A stretch of 30,631 bases of DNA from a virus. Both the position numbers and the translations under genes were made by a program. Positions 4,219 through 30,631 of the stretch are shown here, piece after piece (position 1 is the first letter of the stretch; each line of letters begins with the position of its first letter). The DNA lies in IMG/VR virus record IMGVR_UViG_3300010938_000108, positions 1-30,631 of that record; one strand, 5' to 3'. The notes beneath the pieces are model-generated. The model ran no database searches, had not been told where the DNA came from, and was given only the letters and a program-made list of their open reading frames with translations.

Positions 4219-5652
4219 ATGTTTGCATACCTGGCTTATGGACATGAGATAGGTTACACCGGCAATCATTTCTATTGGGTCCTGGCGGGCCGGGACTGGA
4301 CCGGGAAGGTCGTTCTGCCGTTGCCTCAAACTCCGCCGAGTGCAGGCAGTAATTCTGCCACGAGGCATGTCCTCCGGCGGCATGGGAGCATAGACTATAA
4401 GTTCGTATGGGGCCTTGATCCCGCATATCCTGGTGGGCCTTGGGGAATGGGCATGGGGGACCTGGATCCGGCCACGGGAGCCGTTACGAATATCTTAGAG
4501 AACCAAGAGGCGGACTATGTAAGGAACAACTACGGGGCCATCCTGGGAGAAGATAAGATTTGGGTTTCCGACCCCCTTTGGTCGGGATCGATCAAGGAAT
4601 ATGACATTGAGACGCTGGACCTCCTCACCTCCTATTCCATCAATCCCTCTCGCTGGCCTAGCGTGATCGCCAACCTCCCCAGTGTCCCGGGGAAGATTCT
4701 GACGCAGTACCAGGCCGGAACTTACTATGATCGGCGGGGGGAGCTGGACCTTTCCACCGGAGGCTACTCCTACATCGGCCCCTCGGGATGGTATCTGGAC
4801 ACTCAGACCGCAATTGCCGCCTGCGGCCATACAGATGCCCGTGTCATCCAGTTGGCAGGCCCATACGGGGCTACCGAAAAATATCAATGCACTTTTTACT
4901 TCACCCCTTGGGACGATTCAGAAGACTTGAAATATTGGGGGATTACCGGCTGGAATTACCCCAGCAATCTCTATTATACTGAACCCGAAGGAACCAAATT
5001 TTACCCCTACCTGGAGAATGGGATCAATTCCATTTTTTCGGAAGATTTTGTTCCTCACTTGGCTGTCAACCCTGTTACTGGCAGGATTTACAAGAGCTGG
5101 ATTGAGGTGGGCAGAGACCCCAGCTACCTGAATGCTTACAAAGTCGCCCAATACTGGGCTTATTCCGACGATGTGGGAGAGACCTGGAAGGGAACCACCA
5201 ACCTGGGGTACATCACTTCAGATCTTGTTCCAGAATTCATTGTCCCCGGTCCTGACGGAAGCCTTTACCGGCATACCGCCAGAGGCCCCATCTACATTTA
5301 CCGGTCCGCAGACGGTGGAGACACCTGGTCGGTCTATGGATCCGATTCTGGGCTCGGTTCTGGAGTCGGCCCAACCTCTTTATGGATAGATTGGCTAACC
5401 GGCCGGTTCTACTATGCCCGCTATAGTCATCGGGACATTCGGTTCAACTATGGGCCATCTGGCGGCAGTGATTTCTATAGCCGCCCCACCCAAACTATCG
5501 TTGAAGCCCCTGATCTATGGTATCCTACCGCCTTTGGTGCGGGTCGGCTTCCCGACGGGAAGTTTGTGGCCTTCTGGCGAGACTGGCGGGATGGGTTCCA
5601 GGTCTGCTATAGCAGCAGCGAGGAGAGCGGAGAATGGCAAGTGGGGCCATAG
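4219..5652 (+). CDS. BNR/Asp-box beta-propeller protein (sialidase-like fold), frame-broken near the end
   Basis: Two clear Asp boxes (S-x-D-x-G-x-T-W) are present at residues 316-323 (SDDVGETW) and 363-370 (SADGGDTW), with a degenerate one near 468 (SSEESGEW). The many YWG, DLDP and LDPATG strand motifs fit a six-bladed propeller. Known relatives bind or hydrolyse glycans, but I see no certain sialidase catalytic set, so glycan binding is as likely as hydrolysis. GGAG sits seven bases before the ATG. There is no signal peptide. The frame stops at 5652, but the -1 frame continues the fold to 5855 (next entry). Confidence 0.7.
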   Translation: MFAYLAYGHEIGYTGNHFYWVLAGRDWTGKVVLPLPQTPPSAGSNSATRHVLRRHGSIDYKFVWGLDPAYPGGPWGMGMGDLDPATGAVTNILENQEADYVRNNYGAILGEDKIWVSDPLWSGSIKEYDIETLDLLTSYSINPSRWPSVIANLPSVPGKILTQYQAGTYYDRRGELDLSTGGYSYIGPSGWYLDTQTAIAACGHTDARVIQLAGPYGATEKYQCTFYFTPWDDSEDLKYWGITGWNYPSNLYYTEPEGTKFYPYLENGINSIFSEDFVPHLAVNPVTGRIYKSWIEVGRDPSYLNAYKVAQYWAYSDDVGETWKGTTNLGYITSDLVPEFIVPGPDGSLYRHTARGPIYIYRSADGGDTWSVYGSDSGLGSGVGPTSLWIDWLTGRFYYARYSHRDIRFNYGPSGGSDFYSRPTQTIVEAPDLWYPTAFGAGRLPDGKFVAFWRDWRDGFQVCYSSSEESGEWQVGP

Positions 5653-5855
5653 ATCCCAAAACAGGAAGATTGCATTTGATTTACTGGGATGCGGGCTACA
5701 TCAAGCATGCCTACTACGACCACGCAGGGGACTGGACGGAGGAGAATGTGGAGGCATGCCCCATCTACTGTGAGCCTGCGATGGTGCTCTTGAAGGACGG
5801 CAAGATCTTTGTGACCTGGACGGTGGACCGAACATGGTACCAGAAAATCCTTTAA
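5646..5855 (+). pseudogene. C-terminal part of the beta-propeller protein in the -1 frame
   Basis: Shifting by -1 at the GGGG run (5643-5646) continues WQVG into AIDPKTGRLHLIYWDAGYI, with a typical propeller-strand pattern and another W-containing repeat (DHAGDWTEEN). The repaired protein would have about 545 residues. The TerS start (5834) overlaps this frame's end by 22 bases, as expected if 5855 is the true stop. The heptamer is not a canonical slippery site (only GGG re-pairs). A point indel, a sequencing error or a non-canonical shift are all possible. Confidence 0.65.
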
Positions 5856-6358
5856 AATCAAAGGTTTTGGAGTTAAGGAAGGCGGGGGTTGCTTATACGA
5901 AAATCGCCGAGCAACTGAATATCCCCTGGGGAACGGTGTATAGCTGGTGTCGTAAGGCCGGGCTGGTGGTCAGCCGGTCCTCCCCCGACAATCCCGACCA
6001 CCCCGACAATCCCGACCACCCCGACAATCCCGACCACCCCGACAATCCCAACCTTCAACTTGAACTTCCCCAGCCGGAACTTCCGTCCCTTGAAGAATCT
6101 TCTTCCCAGGAGGAGATGGCCAAACGCATCCTAATCGCGGCCTTACCGGATGCCGCCAAGAAGCTCTGGGATGCTGTCCGCCAGGGCGGGAGGCCGACCT
6201 ACACTTCGATCCGGGCCGCTGAACTGATCCTCCGGGCCATGCGGATCCTGACCGATAAGCAGGAGGTGGCCATCGGGGTGACCATGCTCCAGCGGGCCAT
6301 CGAGGAGATCGTGAGCGAAGAGGCCGAAAAGCTGAATGCTGGATCAAACAACCATTGA
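5834..6358 (+). CDS. terS: Terminase small subunit
   Basis: A 174-residue protein with an N-terminal helix-turn-helix (residues about 8-42: VLELRKAGVAYTKIAEQLNI, then a recognition helix with GTVYSWCRK). It is joined by a PDNPDH repeat linker to a helical C-terminal region that should form the oligomerisation and TerL-binding part. TerS binds the packaging site and loads TerL. It lies directly upstream of terL with a 23-base overlap, the usual order. The repeat linker is unusual. Confidence 0.85.
   Translation: MVPENPLKSKVLELRKAGVAYTKIAEQLNIPWGTVYSWCRKAGLVVSRSSPDNPDHPDNPDHPDNPDHPDNPNLQLELPQPELPSLEESSSQEEMAKRILIAALPDAAKKLWDAVRQGGRPTYTSIRAAELILRAMRILTDKQEVAIGVTMLQRAIEEIVSEEAEKLNAGSNNH
5984..6052 (+). 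repeat. 18-bp tandem repeat (PDNPDH) in terS linker
   Basis: Three full 18-base units CCCGACAATCCCGACCAC (5984-6037) and a partial fourth (6038-6052). They encode a Pro/Asp/Asn/His linker between the DNA-binding and core domains. Unit number could easily vary by slippage without breaking the frame. Confidence 0.9.
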
Positions 6359-7817
6359 TGGAATTCGGGCCAAGGTGACGGAATTATTGGCGGAAGGTCT
6401 GCCCCCAGAACAAGTGAGCCACTTCCTCAAGGCCGGATATTATCCGCTGCCGGGCGGCCAGCGGAAATTCCATATTGCGGCCCGAGCTGCCGATTGGCCG
6501 AACCAGCCACGGTTCATCCTCATCGAGGGCAACCGAGGCGGCGGGAAAACCCATGCGGCTTTGGCTCAAGTCCTGCTGGATGATTGCCATCGGGCCGACG
6601 TCAATGCCTTGATCCTGCGTCGGATCGGGCTCGCCATGCGGGAGCAGATGGAGAGCCGCCAGTCGCGATTTTTGTTGCCCGGAACCTCCATGGAGTATGC
6701 CCGCAACACCGGAGTTATTCGCCTGGGCCAGTCCATCGTTCGGCTGGGTCATTATCATTCGGACCGCGACGTGGATCGCTACTTAGGACAGGAATATGAT
6801 GTCATCCTGGTGGAGGAGCTGACCCAGCTGACATTGAATAAGTTTCTGGACATTGTTTCCTGCTTGCGGACTTCTAAGCCCGGCTGGAGGCCGCGGCTAT
6901 ATGCCACCACCAACCCAGAGGGGATCGGATTTACTTGGGTGAAACGACTCTGGATCTCTCGGCGATACTCCCAAGGTGAATTCCCCGGCGACTATACCTC
7001 CATCCGCGTCATGCTGAATGAGAATCCCTATCTGGATCAGGAGGAATATCTCCGCTCCCTGGGGAGCCTTTCAGAGGTGAAATACAAAGCCTGGGTGGAG
7101 GGCTCCTGGGACATCGCGACCGGCCAGTTCTTCGATTTTGACCGGAGCCGGGTGGTCCGGCCCAAGATGGAAGAGGTCCCCCACTATTGGCAGACCTGGG
7201 GGGCTTACGACTATGGCTGGACCCATCCTTCCGCTTGGCTCTCCTTCGCCATGGACAGCTTCAAGAATGTGTGGACCATCCGCGAATGGGGCGGCCCGCG
7301 GAAGCCGCTCTGGGAGCAGGTGGCCGAGATTGCCGCTTGGCCGGAGGCCAAGCGATGGCGATTCGTCGCATGTTCCCCCGATATGTGGGGACATTACGAC
7401 GATGAAGGCAATACCATTGCCGCTAAGCTGGAGAAGGCTTTGAGGGAAGTGGGGATCCATGCTGTTCTGCGGCCGGCTTCCCCCGGCCGGATTCAGGGGG
7501 CGGCTGAAGTGCTCCATCGGCTGGGCGGGATGGGGAAAGAGCCGACCTGGTTCATCTGCGAGAATTGCGTTCGGCTCATCGAAACCTTGGGCTACCTGCA
7601 GCATGACCCTCATCAACCGGAGGATGTGCTCAAGGTGAACGCGGATGACCAGGGGGAAGGTGGAGATGACTTCTACGATGCGGCCCGCTACGGGCTGATG
7701 GCGATCTCCCAGGGAGCCGCCCCTTATCGGCCCATGATGCCAGGATATGCTCCTAAGCTGGCTCCGGCCCGATTGGGGGTCCCTCGACGCCGGAATGTTG
7801 CCATTGTGAGGAGTTAA
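6336..7817 (+). CDS. terL: Terminase large subunit (ATPase-nuclease)
   Basis: A 493-residue packaging motor. The Walker A variant is GNRGGGKT (residues 65-72), and Walker B is VILVEE (156-161) with the catalytic glutamate. The C-terminal RNase-H-like nuclease has candidate metal-binding acids Asp292 (AYDYGW), Asp349 (CSPDMWG) and Asp448 (DDFYDAARY). Length and layout match the SPP1/T4-like family. It pumps genomic DNA into the prohead and cuts concatemers. The start overlaps terS. All motifs are intact. Confidence 0.95.
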   Translation: MLDQTTIDGIRAKVTELLAEGLPPEQVSHFLKAGYYPLPGGQRKFHIAARAADWPNQPRFILIEGNRGGGKTHAALAQVLLDDCHRADVNALILRRIGLAMREQMESRQSRFLLPGTSMEYARNTGVIRLGQSIVRLGHYHSDRDVDRYLGQEYDVILVEELTQLTLNKFLDIVSCLRTSKPGWRPRLYATTNPEGIGFTWVKRLWISRRYSQGEFPGDYTSIRVMLNENPYLDQEEYLRSLGSLSEVKYKAWVEGSWDIATGQFFDFDRSRVVRPKMEEVPHYWQTWGAYDYGWTHPSAWLSFAMDSFKNVWTIREWGGPRKPLWEQVAEIAAWPEAKRWRFVACSPDMWGHYDDEGNTIAAKLEKALREVGIHAVLRPASPGRIQGAAEVLHRLGGMGKEPTWFICENCVRLIETLGYLQHDPHQPEDVLKVNADDQGEGGDDFYDAARYGLMAISQGAAPYRPMMPGYAPKLAPARLGVPRRRNVAIVRS

Positions 7818-15682: not shown

Positions 15683-16176
15683 TGGGGACCTACGAAGTAT
15701 TCAGCGACTTCATCGATGAGGGGGTCCGTACGGCCATTGATACCGCACGGGACGAGAAGGGTATGGCGCCCCTGGCGGCCTGGCAGGATGATCTACCCAT
15801 TGTCCCCCTGAGGTTTGAGGAGTGGGAACAGTGGCTTCCCTTGGTTCCCACTCCATTTGGCATTGTCCTCTTAGGCGAGAATACCACTTCCCAGCTGATC
15901 GGCAGTGGCCGGATGCGCCGAAGCATGACGCTCTACGTTGCCGTCTCCGTGGAGGCCGCCAATGCGAACGAACGTTCGCAAAAGTTCGCCAAGACGGAAG
16001 ACAGCACCGTGTCGGGCGTGATTGCGGCCCTGCCTGATTACTTTACAGCCGATCCACGGTATCCCCGGGCAGAGTATCAAGGTTGCCAGTATCTACCCTT
16101 TGAGACCCGGAGGGCCGACAAGGAGATCGGCCTTTGTGTCACACAGTGGGCCATTGAGATCATGGAGGATGTATAA
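15682..16176 (+). CDS. Tail terminator-like protein
   Basis: 164 residues, alpha/beta. The strands (SMTLYVAVSVEAAN; ETRRADKEIGLCVTQWAIEIM) and position between the gpG-like protein and tail genes fit the tail terminator or tail-to-head joining protein. No sequence motif is decisive. One-base overlap with the next gene (TAATG). Confidence 0.6.
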   Translation: MGTYEVFSDFIDEGVRTAIDTARDEKGMAPLAAWQDDLPIVPLRFEEWEQWLPLVPTPFGIVLLGENTTSQLIGSGRMRRSMTLYVAVSVEAANANERSQKFAKTEDSTVSGVIAALPDYFTADPRYPRAEYQGCQYLPFETRRADKEIGLCVTQWAIEIMEDV

Positions 16177-17723
16177 TGGAGCCGGTGGCAATCTGCTCCC
16201 TGTTGGATGATAGCAAGAAGGACCTGCTGCCCATCGTCATGCAGGCCGCTGGCAGGGTGGATTGGGGAGGCAATCCAGTCGCCTGGATCATTGCTGTTGC
16301 AGATGCCTCCCAGGAGGTCCGCGAAGCCTTCGATCCGCCTTGCCCGGCCATATTCGTGGATTTCCCAGAGGAGCAGAAGAGGGAGTTCCCGCCCCATCAC
16401 CGAGCCCAGGATGCGAACCATTACCGCTGGATGGCTCGGCTCCGGGAACTGGTCCGATTGCAGGTGCTGCAGACGGACGCCCGGTGGGTTCTCTGGTGGG
16501 ATCTGGATGTGGAACCTATTCATCCGGCTCCGGCTTTCTCCCTGCTACGAGAGGAACTGTTGGCCACCCAGGGGCCGCTGGCTCCCAAGCAGATCACGGC
16601 CCTGTTCCCGGACCGCTGGGTGGGCTATCCCCAGCCACGGATGTGGCGCTCGCTCATCAGCCCCAAACCAACAAAGGAAGATGTGAGCTATACCTTCATC
16701 TACCCTCCCAACTGGAGTCCGCTCAATCCCCGCGGGCTCACCCCGGTTTCCTTTTGTGGGTTTGGTTTCCGACTGATGGGCCGGGAAGTCCTGGAGAACA
16801 TCAGCTGGCAGCAGTTCGATAAGGTCGCCAACTTGCTCACTGGAGAGGACGTATATTTCGACCGGCTCTGCGAACGGATTTTCGGGGTTCCGCTCTACTG
16901 TCATAGCCAGGTTCCATGCCGCCACTACCGGGACGATGGAAGCTATTTCGAGCCCTTCCTGCCGGACCATGGCATTGCCTGGGACTTCCGATATGTGGGC
17001 GGCCCTGAGGTATTGCTTTCCGTTGCTATAGATGCCAAGGGCCGGGACATCCGACTGCCGGTCCAAGCGGTGCTGGACCAATTGAAGCCGGAAGAGGAAT
17101 TGATCATCCTGGACGGGGGCGGCAATATTTTCCCGAACTGGGATCAAATCCCGGAAAATATCCGAATCATTGATGTCCGGCACCTCCTGGATGGCCCTTA
17201 CTTCCCGGAGGCCCGGCTGAAGAACCTGGCCGTCCACCTTTCCCGGCGGGACTATATTGTGCTGTTGAATGCCGACATTGTTCTGGGGCCGAAGGGACTT
17301 TCCCAGATCCGCCAACAATTGAGTGCGGATCCCAAAGCGCTGCTCACCGCCGCTACGGTTTTCCTGGATTGCAGTACAACCCAGAAATGGCTGGAGGAGG
17401 GCCAGCCAACCTTTCATGATCTACCACCTCTGCAGGCCACCGGAGATGCTTACGGCAGCCTCATGGCTGCCAGGAAAGACCTGATCGAGGAGGCCGGAGG
17501 CTTCTGCGAGGATTTCGTGGGTTGGGGAGCCTGGGACGATGACTTCGTCGAACGTTGGACCGGCCCCCACTATCAAGCCAACAACGTTTTTCATCTTTGG
17601 CATTGGGAGAAGGCTTTCCCCAAAGCCGCCCAACCGAATGCCATCGAGAACTTCCGACTGCTCCATGAACGCCACTGGGAGCGATTTCTGAAGAAGGAGG
17701 AACTGAACTATGCCTGCCCCTAA
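16176..17723 (+). CDS. Two-domain glycosyltransferase embedded in the tail operon
   Basis: 515 residues. The N-terminal GT-A-like domain (about 1-290) has WVLWWDLDVEP with a D-x-D site at Asp109/Asp111, and GEDVYFDRL (about 228-236). The C-terminal domain (about 291-515) resembles GT2/chondroitin-polymerase-like transferases. It has RRDYIVLLNADIVLGP (Asp367) and GWGAWDDDF (449-457), then a conserved H-x-W segment (FHLWHWEK). It has no signal peptide or membrane anchor, so it acts in the cytoplasm. It overlaps the tail tube gene by 14 bases, which makes virion protein glycosylation the simplest guess. Donor and acceptor are unknown. Confidence 0.8.
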   Translation: MEPVAICSLLDDSKKDLLPIVMQAAGRVDWGGNPVAWIIAVADASQEVREAFDPPCPAIFVDFPEEQKREFPPHHRAQDANHYRWMARLRELVRLQVLQTDARWVLWWDLDVEPIHPAPAFSLLREELLATQGPLAPKQITALFPDRWVGYPQPRMWRSLISPKPTKEDVSYTFIYPPNWSPLNPRGLTPVSFCGFGFRLMGREVLENISWQQFDKVANLLTGEDVYFDRLCERIFGVPLYCHSQVPCRHYRDDGSYFEPFLPDHGIAWDFRYVGGPEVLLSVAIDAKGRDIRLPVQAVLDQLKPEEELIILDGGGNIFPNWDQIPENIRIIDVRHLLDGPYFPEARLKNLAVHLSRRDYIVLLNADIVLGPKGLSQIRQQLSADPKALLTAATVFLDCSTTQKWLEEGQPTFHDLPPLQATGDAYGSLMAARKDLIEEAGGFCEDFVGWGAWDDDFVERWTGPHYQANNVFHLWHWEKAFPKAAQPNAIENFRLLHERHWERFLKKEELNYACP

Positions 17724-24483: not shown

Positions 24484-25671
24484 ATGGCATATCCGCGTGG
24501 ATCCTGGTCAGGAAGGATAGGAATTTCTTCCTATGCCGCCGATGGCGACCCCATGTCGGCGGCCGATCTAGAGGCCGAAATGACGGTCATCCGGGCTTTG
24601 GCCCGTGGCCTGGCGAAGCTGATGGGCCCTTCGGCTGCGACCGGTTCCCAGATCGCCGGAACGAAATTCTCTTCCGGCTCCTCCGTCCCGGCCGGAGCCT
24701 GGGTCATCTTCGATAATTCCGGCTATCCCCACTATCGGGAGATCGGTGGGTCTACTCCCATTTATGCTGGAGCCTCCGGGACTTCGATGAAACTCTATGC
24801 CGTCCTCAAGCTGGAGAGTGGGATCAGTCCCGACTTGGTAGATTCGGACCTGGATGCGATTGAGTTTTGGGCTTACGGCCTGTCGGATCCGGCTCCCAGC
24901 CATTCCCTCTTGCTGGGCCAGGGGACAGGGGCTGTGTCTGGAAATCTTTTTAATTTCACCAGCTTCACTTGGCAGAGCGGGGCTTACCAGGTTTCACTGG
25001 ATGATATTGCAGGCTTCGGGTTGGAATATGACACCAATGGCCGCCTAGCAGTGAATGCGGGAGCCCTGGCAGGAACGGGGCTGGAAGAGCATACCGATGG
25101 GACCCTGCGGATTGCCTCCAGCGCCGCCGGATTCGGCCTGAACGGAGGTTCCGGTGCAGCCTTGGAAGTGGACCTAACCGAGATCACCGGCGACGGGCTC
25201 ACGGTAGATTCTAGTAAAATCAAGGTCCTGCCGGACGGGACGTCTCTTTCCGTATCTGCCGCCGGAACCACCATCGCATCCGGCGGAGTGGAGCCCATCC
25301 ACCTGGCCTCGGACCTGTCGGCCCGAATCTGCCAATGCTCCATCACGGCGGGGGCGGAGAGTTCGGATGTTCGCAGGATCACGGTCCAGTTCCAGAATGC
25401 CGCAGGGAACAACATTGCTTATGCCTGCGGCGCCATCATCTGGCTATCGGATACCGACTACTCGGCGGCATTGACGTCCGTTTCCCCCTCGGCCTGGTCT
25501 GCCATTACCGGTAATCAATCTTTCATCGTCACAAATAAGTACGCGAACTTCGCCACGGGCAGCGGGGGATATTACCAGTTCGACTTAACCATCTCTGGAG
25601 CCGCTACCATCTACGTTCTTGTGAGCATCGGAGGGCGGATCTATTCTTCGGGAGCTCTATCATGGGCATGA
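24484..25671 (+). CDS. Tail fibre-like protein A, 395 aa
   Basis: An N-terminal region (about 1-170) is followed by a Gly-rich repeat core: GFGLEYDTNGRLAVNAGALA, GTGLEEHTDGTLRIASSAAG, GDGLTVDSSKIKVLPDG. This is the short-strand repeat pattern of trimeric fibres and collar-like appendages. A C-terminal beta domain ends in GGRIYSSGALSW. It is paralogous over its full length to the next gene, whose start it overlaps by ten bases. It probably binds a host receptor or glycan. Confidence 0.75.
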   Translation: MAYPRGSWSGRIGISSYAADGDPMSAADLEAEMTVIRALARGLAKLMGPSAATGSQIAGTKFSSGSSVPAGAWVIFDNSGYPHYREIGGSTPIYAGASGTSMKLYAVLKLESGISPDLVDSDLDAIEFWAYGLSDPAPSHSLLLGQGTGAVSGNLFNFTSFTWQSGAYQVSLDDIAGFGLEYDTNGRLAVNAGALAGTGLEEHTDGTLRIASSAAGFGLNGGSGAALEVDLTEITGDGLTVDSSKIKVLPDGTSLSVSAAGTTIASGGVEPIHLASDLSARICQCSITAGAESSDVRRITVQFQNAAGNNIAYACGAIIWLSDTDYSAALTSVSPSAWSAITGNQSFIVTNKYANFATGSGGYYQFDLTISGAATIYVLVSIGGRIYSSGALSWA

Positions 25672-26870
25672 GAACCTTTCCAGAACGCGGAATCTACCTT
25701 CCCCACGGGACTGGAACCACGAGGATTGGATTGCTCCCCATGCCCGCTGCCGGGGAGCGGATGGCAGCGCATGACCTCCTGGATTATTTCTGGTCCTGGA
25801 AAAGCTTCTCCCGGGCAGTCTTGAGGAGGATCCATGACCAGGAAGGTTTCCAGCTGGGCGGATCGAAGTTTGCTTCAGGTACACAATTCCCAGCGGCTGG
25901 CTTCTTCTTCTTCGATGAAGCCGGTTTCCCTTATTATCGCGAAACCTCGGCGGCTCAGAATATCACTTTCAACGATACCGACGGTACCCTGGCCCTCTGG
26001 GTGGTCCCGACCACCCAAGAGGCTCCCCTCTCCCGCTTGATCACTTCGGACTGGAGTGAAGTGGAGTTTTACGCCCAGGATGCAACCCTCTCGGATCCAC
26101 CTGGAAAGGCGGGATTCAAGCTGGGTCAAGGGACGGCCGGCGGCTCTAGCTTCTCCAGCTTCACTTACGATTCCGGGAGATGGTATCCCGGCTACTACGA
26201 CCTGGCTGGCCTTAATTTGGAGTATGATTCCAACATGAGGCTCCAAGTCAATGCAGGTGACCTCGCGGGGACCGGCCTGGAGGAGCATGCCGATGGGACC
26301 CTGCGGATCGCTGCTGCTGCCGCTGGCCTGGGCCTAGGAGGGGGAAGCGGTTCGGCCCTAGCATTTGATGGTTCGGAAGTCGTGGGAGACGGCCTGGAGG
26401 TGGCCTCCTCCCAGCTGCAAGTGAAGCTGAATGGATCGAACCTGTCACGCAGTGCTTCTGGATTGAAGATTGCCGATGGGGGCGTTTACTATACCCGAAT
26501 CAACGATACCCTCCAGGATTTCTTGCCCACGAGCCCAGCCTGGACCATCGGGAGCGAAGTGGGGGACACGATCCGGGTTTCCTGTCAGTTCCGGGATACC
26601 GCCGGAAACAACCTTTCCCAGTATTGCACCGCATTTTTCAATATCTCTACGGGGTCGGGTGGAATGGCCCAGGGGACGGCCCTTACAGATGTCACCGTCG
26701 TCACCGGAACGGCCTATTGGTACATTGCCAAGTTCACCGCCCATATCGTTACCAATTCAACCGGCCTATTCGAGATTAACTTGAAATATACCGGCGGGGC
26801 GTTGACCCGCTATTGCAATGTCAACATCCTGGGGCGCAGGTATGCGTCCCCGGCGATTAATTGGACATAA
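25662..26870 (+). CDS. Tail fibre-like protein B, 402 aa (paralogue of A)
   Basis: It shares with protein A the opening pattern (G-S-K-F-A-S-G-T-Q-F-P-A-A-G...), the W-S-E-V-E-F-Y-A strand, the repeats GTGLEEHADGTLRIAAAAAG and GDGLEVASSQLQVKLNG, and a C-terminal domain with TAGNNLSQYCTAFF and LGRRYASPAINW. The N-terminus and the tip region have diverged most. Tandem duplication followed by divergence suggests two receptor specificities or a hetero-oligomeric fibre. Confidence 0.75.
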   Translation: MGMRTFPERGIYLPHGTGTTRIGLLPMPAAGERMAAHDLLDYFWSWKSFSRAVLRRIHDQEGFQLGGSKFASGTQFPAAGFFFFDEAGFPYYRETSAAQNITFNDTDGTLALWVVPTTQEAPLSRLITSDWSEVEFYAQDATLSDPPGKAGFKLGQGTAGGSSFSSFTYDSGRWYPGYYDLAGLNLEYDSNMRLQVNAGDLAGTGLEEHADGTLRIAAAAAGLGLGGGSGSALAFDGSEVVGDGLEVASSQLQVKLNGSNLSRSASGLKIADGGVYYTRINDTLQDFLPTSPAWTIGSEVGDTIRVSCQFRDTAGNNLSQYCTAFFNISTGSGGMAQGTALTDVTVVTGTAYWYIAKFTAHIVTNSTGLFEINLKYTGGALTRYCNVNILGRRYASPAINWT

Positions 26871-29114: not shown

Positions 29115-29282
29115 ATGAAGATGTGGACAGGCCAATACTTGGTGGAGAACACCCAAAGCGTCTTGGTGGTCTTTGGTGGGGTCGGAAAGGAGGATGTAAA
29201 GAAGGACATGAAGCCTGCAGAAGACGCGAAGGATGGGAGGAAATCCCCGGAGGGAGGAATAGGAGAAACACAACGGCGCTGA
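29115..29282 (+). CDS. Small hydrophilic protein, 55 aa
   Basis: It starts two bases after the endolysin stop, with GAGG seven bases upstream. MKMWTGQYLVENTQSVLVVF is followed by a highly charged tail (KEDVKKDMKPAEDAKDGRK). The end lies inside the terminator stem. It may be a small lysis or accessory gene; function unknown. Confidence 0.5.
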   Translation: MKMWTGQYLVENTQSVLVVFGGVGKEDVKKDMKPAEDAKDGRKSPEGGIGETQRR

Positions 29283-29300
29283 ATTTCAGCGCCGTTGTGT
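29268..29300. terminator. Bidirectional terminator between convergent genes
   Basis: ACACAACGGCGCTG (29268-29281), five-base loop, CAGCGCCGTTGTGT (29287-29300): 14-bp perfect stem. Downstream CTTATT on the + side and TTTCTCC on the - side are weak T-tracts, fitting a shared end for the + lysis transcript and the - gene at 29302. Confidence 0.8.
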
Positions 29301-29841: not shown

Positions 29842-29978
29842 GGGAGAACGGTGAGAATGGTGAGAATCGGGAGATTCTATAAAACTCCTATGCACATACC
29901 CCCCCCTTCCTCCCCTTTCTCTCCTCCTCTTGTACCGTAAAACTTATGTGGATTCTCACCATTCTCACCATTCTCACC
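29842..29978. repeat. Inverted-iteron element, copy 1
   Basis: Left arm: GGGAGAAC then two GGTGAGAAT nine-mers (29850-29867). Right arm: three ATTCTCACC (29952-29978). The arms are perfect inverted repeats over at least 18 bases and are 84 bases apart. The core has CTATAAA (29877-29883), CTATGCACAT, a C8 tract (29899-29906), and a long polypyrimidine tract whose - strand is G-rich. It lies between two - strand genes. The core is homologous to copy 2 in reverse orientation. Confidence 0.8.
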
Positions 29979-30016
29979 ATGCTGTTTTCCTCCCCCTTAG
30001 CCTGGCCTCCTCCCCC

Positions 30017-30298
30017 CTACTTTGGGTTGTTCCCCTTAAGGCCATAACGCTGCTGTCCCGGTGTTAATTCGGTCCAGCGGCCTCCATATATTAAGATGTA
30101 GCCCCTATCGGCATTGGCGCAATGCCCGATCCGATGTCCCAGGAATTCCATGGGATCACCATTGGCGGGGCCTGCCCCATGGGTGTGCCACTTGCCGCAC
30201 GGCTCGCACCATACCTTCCATACTCTCTCATTCTTCCCTTCCACCAGATAGGCGGGCAGTTCTGGGAAGTTGTCGTGGATCTCTTGAAAATATTTCAT
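30017..30298 (-). CDS. Small Cys/His-rich conserved protein, 93 aa
   Basis: Read from 30298 (ATG with AAAGGAG upstream; GTG 30301 also possible). The motif WCEPCGKWHTHGAG followed by GHRIGHC matches a small family I recall from actinobacterial and phage genomes (W-C-x-x-C-x-x-W-H-x-H-G ... G-H-R-x-x-H-C), which probably binds zinc. A C-terminal beta part ends in GYILIYGGRW. It lies between iteron elements 1 and 3. Function is unknown. Confidence 0.7.
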   Translation of the reverse strand: MKYFQEIHDNFPELPAYLVEGKNERVWKVWCEPCGKWHTHGAGPANGDPMEFLGHRIGHCANADRGYILIYGGRWTELTPGQQRYGLKGNNPK

Positions 30299-30363
30299 CA
30301 CAGTCTCCTTTCTGGATTGGAATTAATACTCTATCCAATACATACCATGTCGTTATAATATGG

Positions 30364-30425
30364 CCCCCCCTTCTCTCCCCAATTGCGATAACTTCACAAA
30401 AGAATCGTTCTCAAGATTCTCAAAT
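30364..30425. repeat. Partial third copy of the iteron element
   Basis: A C7 tract (30364-30370) followed by TTCTCTCCCC, then a spacer and a right arm GTTCTCAAGATTCTCAAAT (30407-30425). It lacks a recognisable left arm. It is in the same orientation as copy 1 but has the nine-mer type (TTCTCAAGA) of copy 2. Confidence 0.6.
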
Positions 30426-30485
30426 CCCAAGGTTCATCGGCCATCCCCCGCAAAGCCACTCCCCATGCGGCTTTTGCATCCCCCC

Positions 30486-30628
30486 CCTTGAGAACTTTGA
30501 GAATCTTGAGAATCTATATAAGTAAGCATATAATACTTTTCTATGCTATGGGGGAGGGGGAGGGGGGGCATGTGTATATAGAGATTTATAGGTTCTCAAG
30601 ATTCTCAAGATTCTCAAAGTTCTCAAGG
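30486..30628. repeat. Inverted-iteron element, copy 2 (30-bp perfect arms)
   Basis: Left arm 30486-30515 and right arm 30599-30628 are a perfect 30-bp inverted repeat made of TTGAGAATC nine-mers; the right arm extends to 30592 with another unit. The 83-base core holds a GGGGGAGGGGGAGGGGGGG tract (about 30550-30568) with at least three long G-runs. Read from the - strand, the core shows CTATAAA, CTATATACACAT, a C-tract and ACTTATATAGATTCTCA, parallel to copy 1. It lies at the window edge. Confidence 0.85.
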
Positions 30629-30631
30629 CGG

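Follow-up and report, generated by a model that had tools for sequence, protein, structure and literature searches.

Replication origins are unknown for most uncultivated phages. We have studied a locus at one end of a viral contig that raises this question directly: what is the function of two inverted arrays of short repeats, each surrounding a core of about 80 bp, that occupy its final 0.8 kb?

The Contig and Its Genes

The window, i.e., the whole stretch of DNA analyzed, is an IMG/VR virus record of 30631 bases with a GC content of about 56%. It carries the late genes of a tailed phage, encoding the terminase large subunit, portal, capsid, a tape-measure-like protein, a DNA methyltransferase and an NlpC/P60 enzyme. 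A search of IMG/VR with four of its proteins gave no close phage relatives, and no DNA similarity of the window to known phages was found. Neither a replication initiator nor a primase-helicase could be recognized anywhere in the contig.

Other features of the contig were recorded. The + strand late genes are separated from the first gene on the − strand by an inverted repeat (29268-29300; ACACAACGGCGCTGAA/TTCAGCGCCGTTGTGT), probably a two-way terminator, whose 16-bp arms match perfectly around a loop of 1 nt. A 477-aa ORF with BNR/sialidase-like repeats (SADGGDTW, SDDVGETW; 4219-5652) lies upstream of the terminase genes, an unusual location, and a putative small terminase (5834-6358) combines an HTH with tandem (DNPDHP)n repeats in its interior. 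A 515-aa ORF, glycosyltransferase-like by sequence (16176-17723), is found within the block of virion structural genes, and two neighboring ORFs of about 400 aa with similar sequences (24484-26870) correspond to duplicated tail-fibre-like proteins. The window has no tRNA, and an association of the repeat elements with a tRNA or att site was rejected.

Two Modules and a Half Module

An earlier note on this DNA had described two elements and a half copy, and we confirm their positions, with a repeat content that is far beyond chance. The features are collected in Table 1. The constant unit of the arms is TGAGAA, recurring with a 9-bp step, and the three bases between units (the spacer) are TGG in copy 1 and CTT or TCT in copy 2. 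The arms of copy 1 (29844-29975) are 25 nt long with 82 nt between them, and those of copy 2 (30483-30631) are 33 nt long with 83 nt between them. Long inverted arms are thus present as the note had claimed, but each element contains one mismatch, so to call the repeats perfect was a slight overstatement. Copy 1 has two exact iterons and further, degenerate ones on the left and three on the right; copy 2 has three and four. The cores align in opposite orientation and share the motifs CTATAAA and TATRCACATR and a C7-8 (G7) tract. That of module 2 also contains a quadruplex-type motif G5AG5AG7 on the + strand, and TATAAAT on the − strand. The cores are only mildly AT-rich, with a GC content of 48% (module 1) and 40% (module 2) compared with that of the genome.

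Table 1. Features of the repeat region, in window coordinates
Feature	Position	Strand	Description
Module 1, left iteron arm	29844-29868	+	GAGAACGGTGAGAATGGTGAGAATC; TGAGAA each 9 bp
Module 1, core	29869-29950		82 bp; CTATAAA, TATGCACATA, C8, polypyrimidine tract; presumed melting/loading region
Module 1, right iteron arm	29951-29975	−	Three TTCTCA units, the third ending at 29976
Half module	30364-30424		C7/polypyrimidine tract 30364-30380 (C7 at 30364-30370) and two-iteron arm 30408-30424; left arm absent
Module 2, left iteron arm	30483-30515	+	Three TTGAGAA units
Sigma70-like promoter match	30506-30534	+	TTGAGA-17-TATAAT, 11/12; overlaps inner left iteron of module 2
Module 2, core	30516-30598		83 bp; orientation opposite to module 1; G-rich on + strand
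Module 2, right iteron arm	30599-30631	−	Complement of left arm; reaches contig end; fourth iteron just inside at 30592

With up to two mismatches allowed, TTCTCANNATTCTCA has 11 matches in the window, all of them between 29843 and 30625, compared with 0.66 expected. A blind scan for clusters of two-way 7-mers returned nine members at this site, while 40 Markov copies of the window never gave more than five. Neither the rest of the window nor shuffled sequences contained anything comparable.

The Same Design in Other Replicons

Relatives were sought with a pattern that required TGAGAA and equal spacing in both arms but left the spacers free. The mirror-arm design was found in several unrelated viral lineages and on one Lactobacillus plasmid; that TGAGAA is common to these relatives is in part a consequence of having searched for it. 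A related but less symmetric iteron cluster is present on an L. delbrueckii plasmid. In most of these replicons the repeats are found immediately 3′ of a gene for a primase-helicase, of the TOPRIM-AAA, DUF3987 or P4-family type. In two viral records (L006 and L009) the design begins no more than about 20 bp from the end of the gene for a 616-aa TOPRIM-AAA primase-helicase, whose product scores as 'DNA primase/helicase'. In L008 it is located 3′ of a DUF3987 helicase gene, and the order of parts matches that of the window: one-sided array, G/C tract, array, core, array. Two plasmids (L010 and L023) have TGAGAA iteron clusters 3′ of a P4-family primase. An open ORF at 6751-6969 suggests that in L010 this gene continues across the point where the plasmid record starts. 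In two groups of marine phages (L011-L013/L015 and L014), however, the neighbor of the element, about 80-180 bp away, is the gene for the terminase small subunit and not a primase. Evidently the gene neighborhood is not invariant.

The repeats occur at that single place only in the related viral records. The possibility of a common host repeat was rejected, because the iteron pairs are limited to one place in each. One further record (L007) matched the pattern, but what it carries at a contig end is a structure of another kind, made of direct repeats, and it was excluded from the counts. A pattern search with the core motifs matched one unrelated contig, which had no iterons.

Iteron Clusters 3′ of Primase-Helicase Genes

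Is a location 3′ of a primase-helicase gene general? A survey was made that is independent of the TGAGAA sequence. Among 149 genomes belonging to the order of G001, 49 contained P4-family primase genes (TIGR01613); 49 of the matches and two DUF3987 genes, with their surroundings, were scanned for any two-way 7-mer (n = 51). Clusters of at least five such 7-mers start between −100 and +400 bp from the stop codon in 34 of the 51 loci, where about 0.4 would be expected; outside those intervals there are 10 in the other 617 kb. With a threshold of at least six, the numbers become 23 of 51 and none. The iteron sequences nearly all differ from one locus to another, and the inverted arms are short (median 14 nt).

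The conclusion that emerges is that two-way iterons are a general feature of the sequence immediately beyond the 3′ end of primase-helicase genes. A blind rule of this kind finds candidate origins in about two-thirds of the P4-family primase loci that were scanned, and the clusters at the 3′ ends of these genes (L032-L078) are candidate origins for many Lactobacillales prophages and plasmids. The window is the mirror-arm form, with two modules. In the S. thermophilus phage Sfi21 the origin lies downstream of a primase gene. The rule has exceptions: at the threshold used no cluster was seen at the gene 3′ end in the Bacillota DUF3987 loci L079 and L080, or in several DUF3987/AAA phages (L017-L021).

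A Putative Origin of Replication

The reading that we favor, with a probability of roughly 0.77, is that the region is the DNA replication origin of the phage. This putative origin would comprise two opposite-facing inverted-iteron modules and a half module, bound by a self-loading primase-helicase that is encoded off the contig. Several observations count in its favor: the iterons are confined to one place in the genome; the TGAGAA arrays of L006, L008, L009, L010 and L023 are found 3′ of primase-helicase or helicase genes, with L008 repeating the order of parts in the window; and the PICI/SaPI, P4 crr and pRN1 origins lie directly 3′ of primase-helicase genes, as do the clusters of the survey. 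An origin had been among the roles suggested in the earlier note, and is the best supported of them. On the other side, the contig has no recognizable primase-helicase, so the key partner of the proposed origin is unseen, and GC skew at the 1-kb scale makes no clear switch in the contig, which counts against an origin. The position of the marine elements beside the terminase small subunit gene, and the weak AT bias of the module 1 core, also count against it, and part of the sharing of TGAGAA reflects the search pattern.

From the arrangement of the sequence we infer a Rep protein and its action as follows. The gene for a phage-encoded self-loading primase-helicase would probably lie just beyond the contig end. 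The DNA-binding domain of this protein would bind the TGAGAA sites, and two helicase rings would assemble, one on each side of the core of about 80 bp; because the arms are mirror images the rings would be oppositely oriented. They would then melt the core and depart in opposite directions, so that forks would run both ways.

Arrays of short repeats can also serve as transcription operators, and initiators often repress their own promoters too. It is unlikely, in our judgment, that the arrays are operators bound by a phage repressor or activator of the leftward − strand genes and of a rightward promoter overlapping module 2. There are − strand ORFs between and beside the modules, and the strong sigma70-like match overlaps an iteron of module 2. 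However, the number of promoter matches in the region is at the chance level (2 found, 1.7 expected), and no promoter of this type is present at module 1. Several of the relatives are found at the 3′ ends of primase-helicase genes, and not at the promoters of regulators, and operators would have no need of mirror arms round a core of 51-83 bp.

Protein Site or Stem

Do the arms match because a protein reads them, or because they pair? The earlier note had observed that the arms match within a copy while the sequence differs between copies, and this holds. Among seven elements the spacers of the two arms of one element agree at 29 of 30 positions, compared with 29% between elements (permutation P = 0.0002, in a test covering few lineages). 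Identity of the spacer letters was not demanded by the pattern search, so the test is not circular, and the arms evidently change together. The note had taken this as selection for a cruciform or an RNA stem more than for a fixed protein site, and we consider slightly less probable than operators the corresponding explanation, that the region is a structured DNA or RNA element, a cruciform or a stem with a quadruplex loop, selected for its fold, such as a stem-loop origin in the sense of pRN1 or a termination signal. Shuffled sequences fold far less well than either element (z-scores of −6 to −12 for the elements), and there is a precedent in the pRN plasmids, which keep the stem but not its sequence, and in pRN1, where replication needed an intact stem (PMC4234260).

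Nevertheless, TGAGAA is invariant in both copies in the window and in unrelated replicons, and only the spacer varies. Several elements have extra one-sided arrays that have no pairing partner (the half copy, L008, L010 and L011), and the clusters of the P4-family survey persist despite their short arms. Taken together, these properties make a purely structural reading unlikely; the constancy of TGAGAA points to a fixed protein site, and the preference of the note for a cruciform over such a site is not supported. The four-tract G motif of the proposed quadruplex is present in copy 2, on the + strand, and is absent from copy 1 and from L006, L008, L009 and L011. Rfam gave no match at curated thresholds; those below threshold were to long hairpins, plant miRNAs among them, and fell on both strands.

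If TGAGAA alone were read, the spacers of the two arms should drift apart, and their match is a residue that this does not account for. It may arise from homogenization of one arm by the other, or from an added selection for pairing, an additional need for a stem as argued for pRN1. A folding requirement on top of an iteron origin is possible.

A packaging site of the pac or cos type, bound by the terminase small subunit, is very improbable: it would suit the position of the marine elements close to the gene for that subunit, but the terminase genes of the window are 24 kb from the elements on the contig, a primase-helicase is the nearest gene upstream of the element in L006, L008, L009 and the plasmids, and a plasmid does not undergo packaging.

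Comparison with Known Origins

The earlier note knew of no named family with this design. The putative origin described here can, however, be set beside three.

The origins of PICI and SaPI elements (Rep/Pri-Rep) have been found by experiment to consist of two iteron sets round an AT-rich region, directly 3′ of rep (PMC6092414, PMC7581432). They resemble the window in the paired iteron sets that flank a melting region, a role that is presumed for the cores of the window, and differ in belonging to satellites that have their own iteron sequences. The PICI paper states that no other known bacterial replicon has such an origin organization. Contrary to this, we find a PICI-like organization beside P4-family primases generally.

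In P4, the annotated crr 3′ of alpha consists of a duplicated 120-bp unit in which two-way repeats recur every 9 bp, and contains TGTTCA-CAC-TGTTCA. As in the window, there are short two-way repeats at a 9-bp spacing and more than one module per genome (ori1 and crr). The duplicated crr is directly 3′ of the primase-helicase gene. The type 1 iteron of P4 is TGAACA with a GGTGAACA flank, and is not the TGAGAA iteron of the window. Moreover, the arms in P4 are not long inverted repeats (the best is 12 nt), and its two crr units are direct whereas the modules of the window are inverted.

The origin of pRN1 is an inverted repeat that was shown by experiment to be required. It lies immediately beyond the 3′ end of the primase gene, and has been described as a stem-loop without iterons, with a stem of 21 nt and a loop of 58 nt (PMC4234260). 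In the Sulfolobus plasmids pRN1, pHEN7 and pRN2 the arms are 14-23 nt, round 57-66 nt, just 3′ of the primase-helicase gene, which in origins of the pRN1 type encodes an archaeo-eukaryotic primase/SF3 helicase. Measured in the same way, arm and loop are 23/58 in pRN1, and 25/82 and 33/83 in the window with one mismatch each. We observe that the arms of the pRN1 origin (L089:5082-5185) read TGTCCA-TAG-TGTCCA, a hexamer that recurs after 9 bp, and TGTCAC-CAC-TGTCAC is present in the arms of pHEN7. The probability that a random 23-mer with the composition of pRN1 has a six-match run at a 9-bp step is 0.0017. The hexamers match between arms in pRN1 and pHEN7, and in pRN1 so does the spacer. In pRN2 the inverted repeat is weaker and the 9-bp hexamers are weak, and in pDL10 no 9-bp hexamer repeat was seen. 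The pRN1 type differs from the window in being an archaeal plasmid origin with one module, two repeats per arm and other hexamers.

These sequences suggest that the pRN1 'stem-loop' origin and iteron origins are the same thing. Tentatively, and at rather less than even odds, we would go further and propose a widespread class of origin, shared by archaeal plasmids, tailed phages and Lactobacillus plasmids, with 9-bp-spaced hexamer pairs, mirror arms, spacers that evolve in concert, and both protein sites and stem retained; this phage, with its two divergent opposite-facing modules, would have a bipartite origin. The elements of the window share the design of the P4 ori/crr, PICI/SaPI and pRN1-type origins, and most likely represent an origin of a kind already known, unusual in its symmetry and in having two modules.
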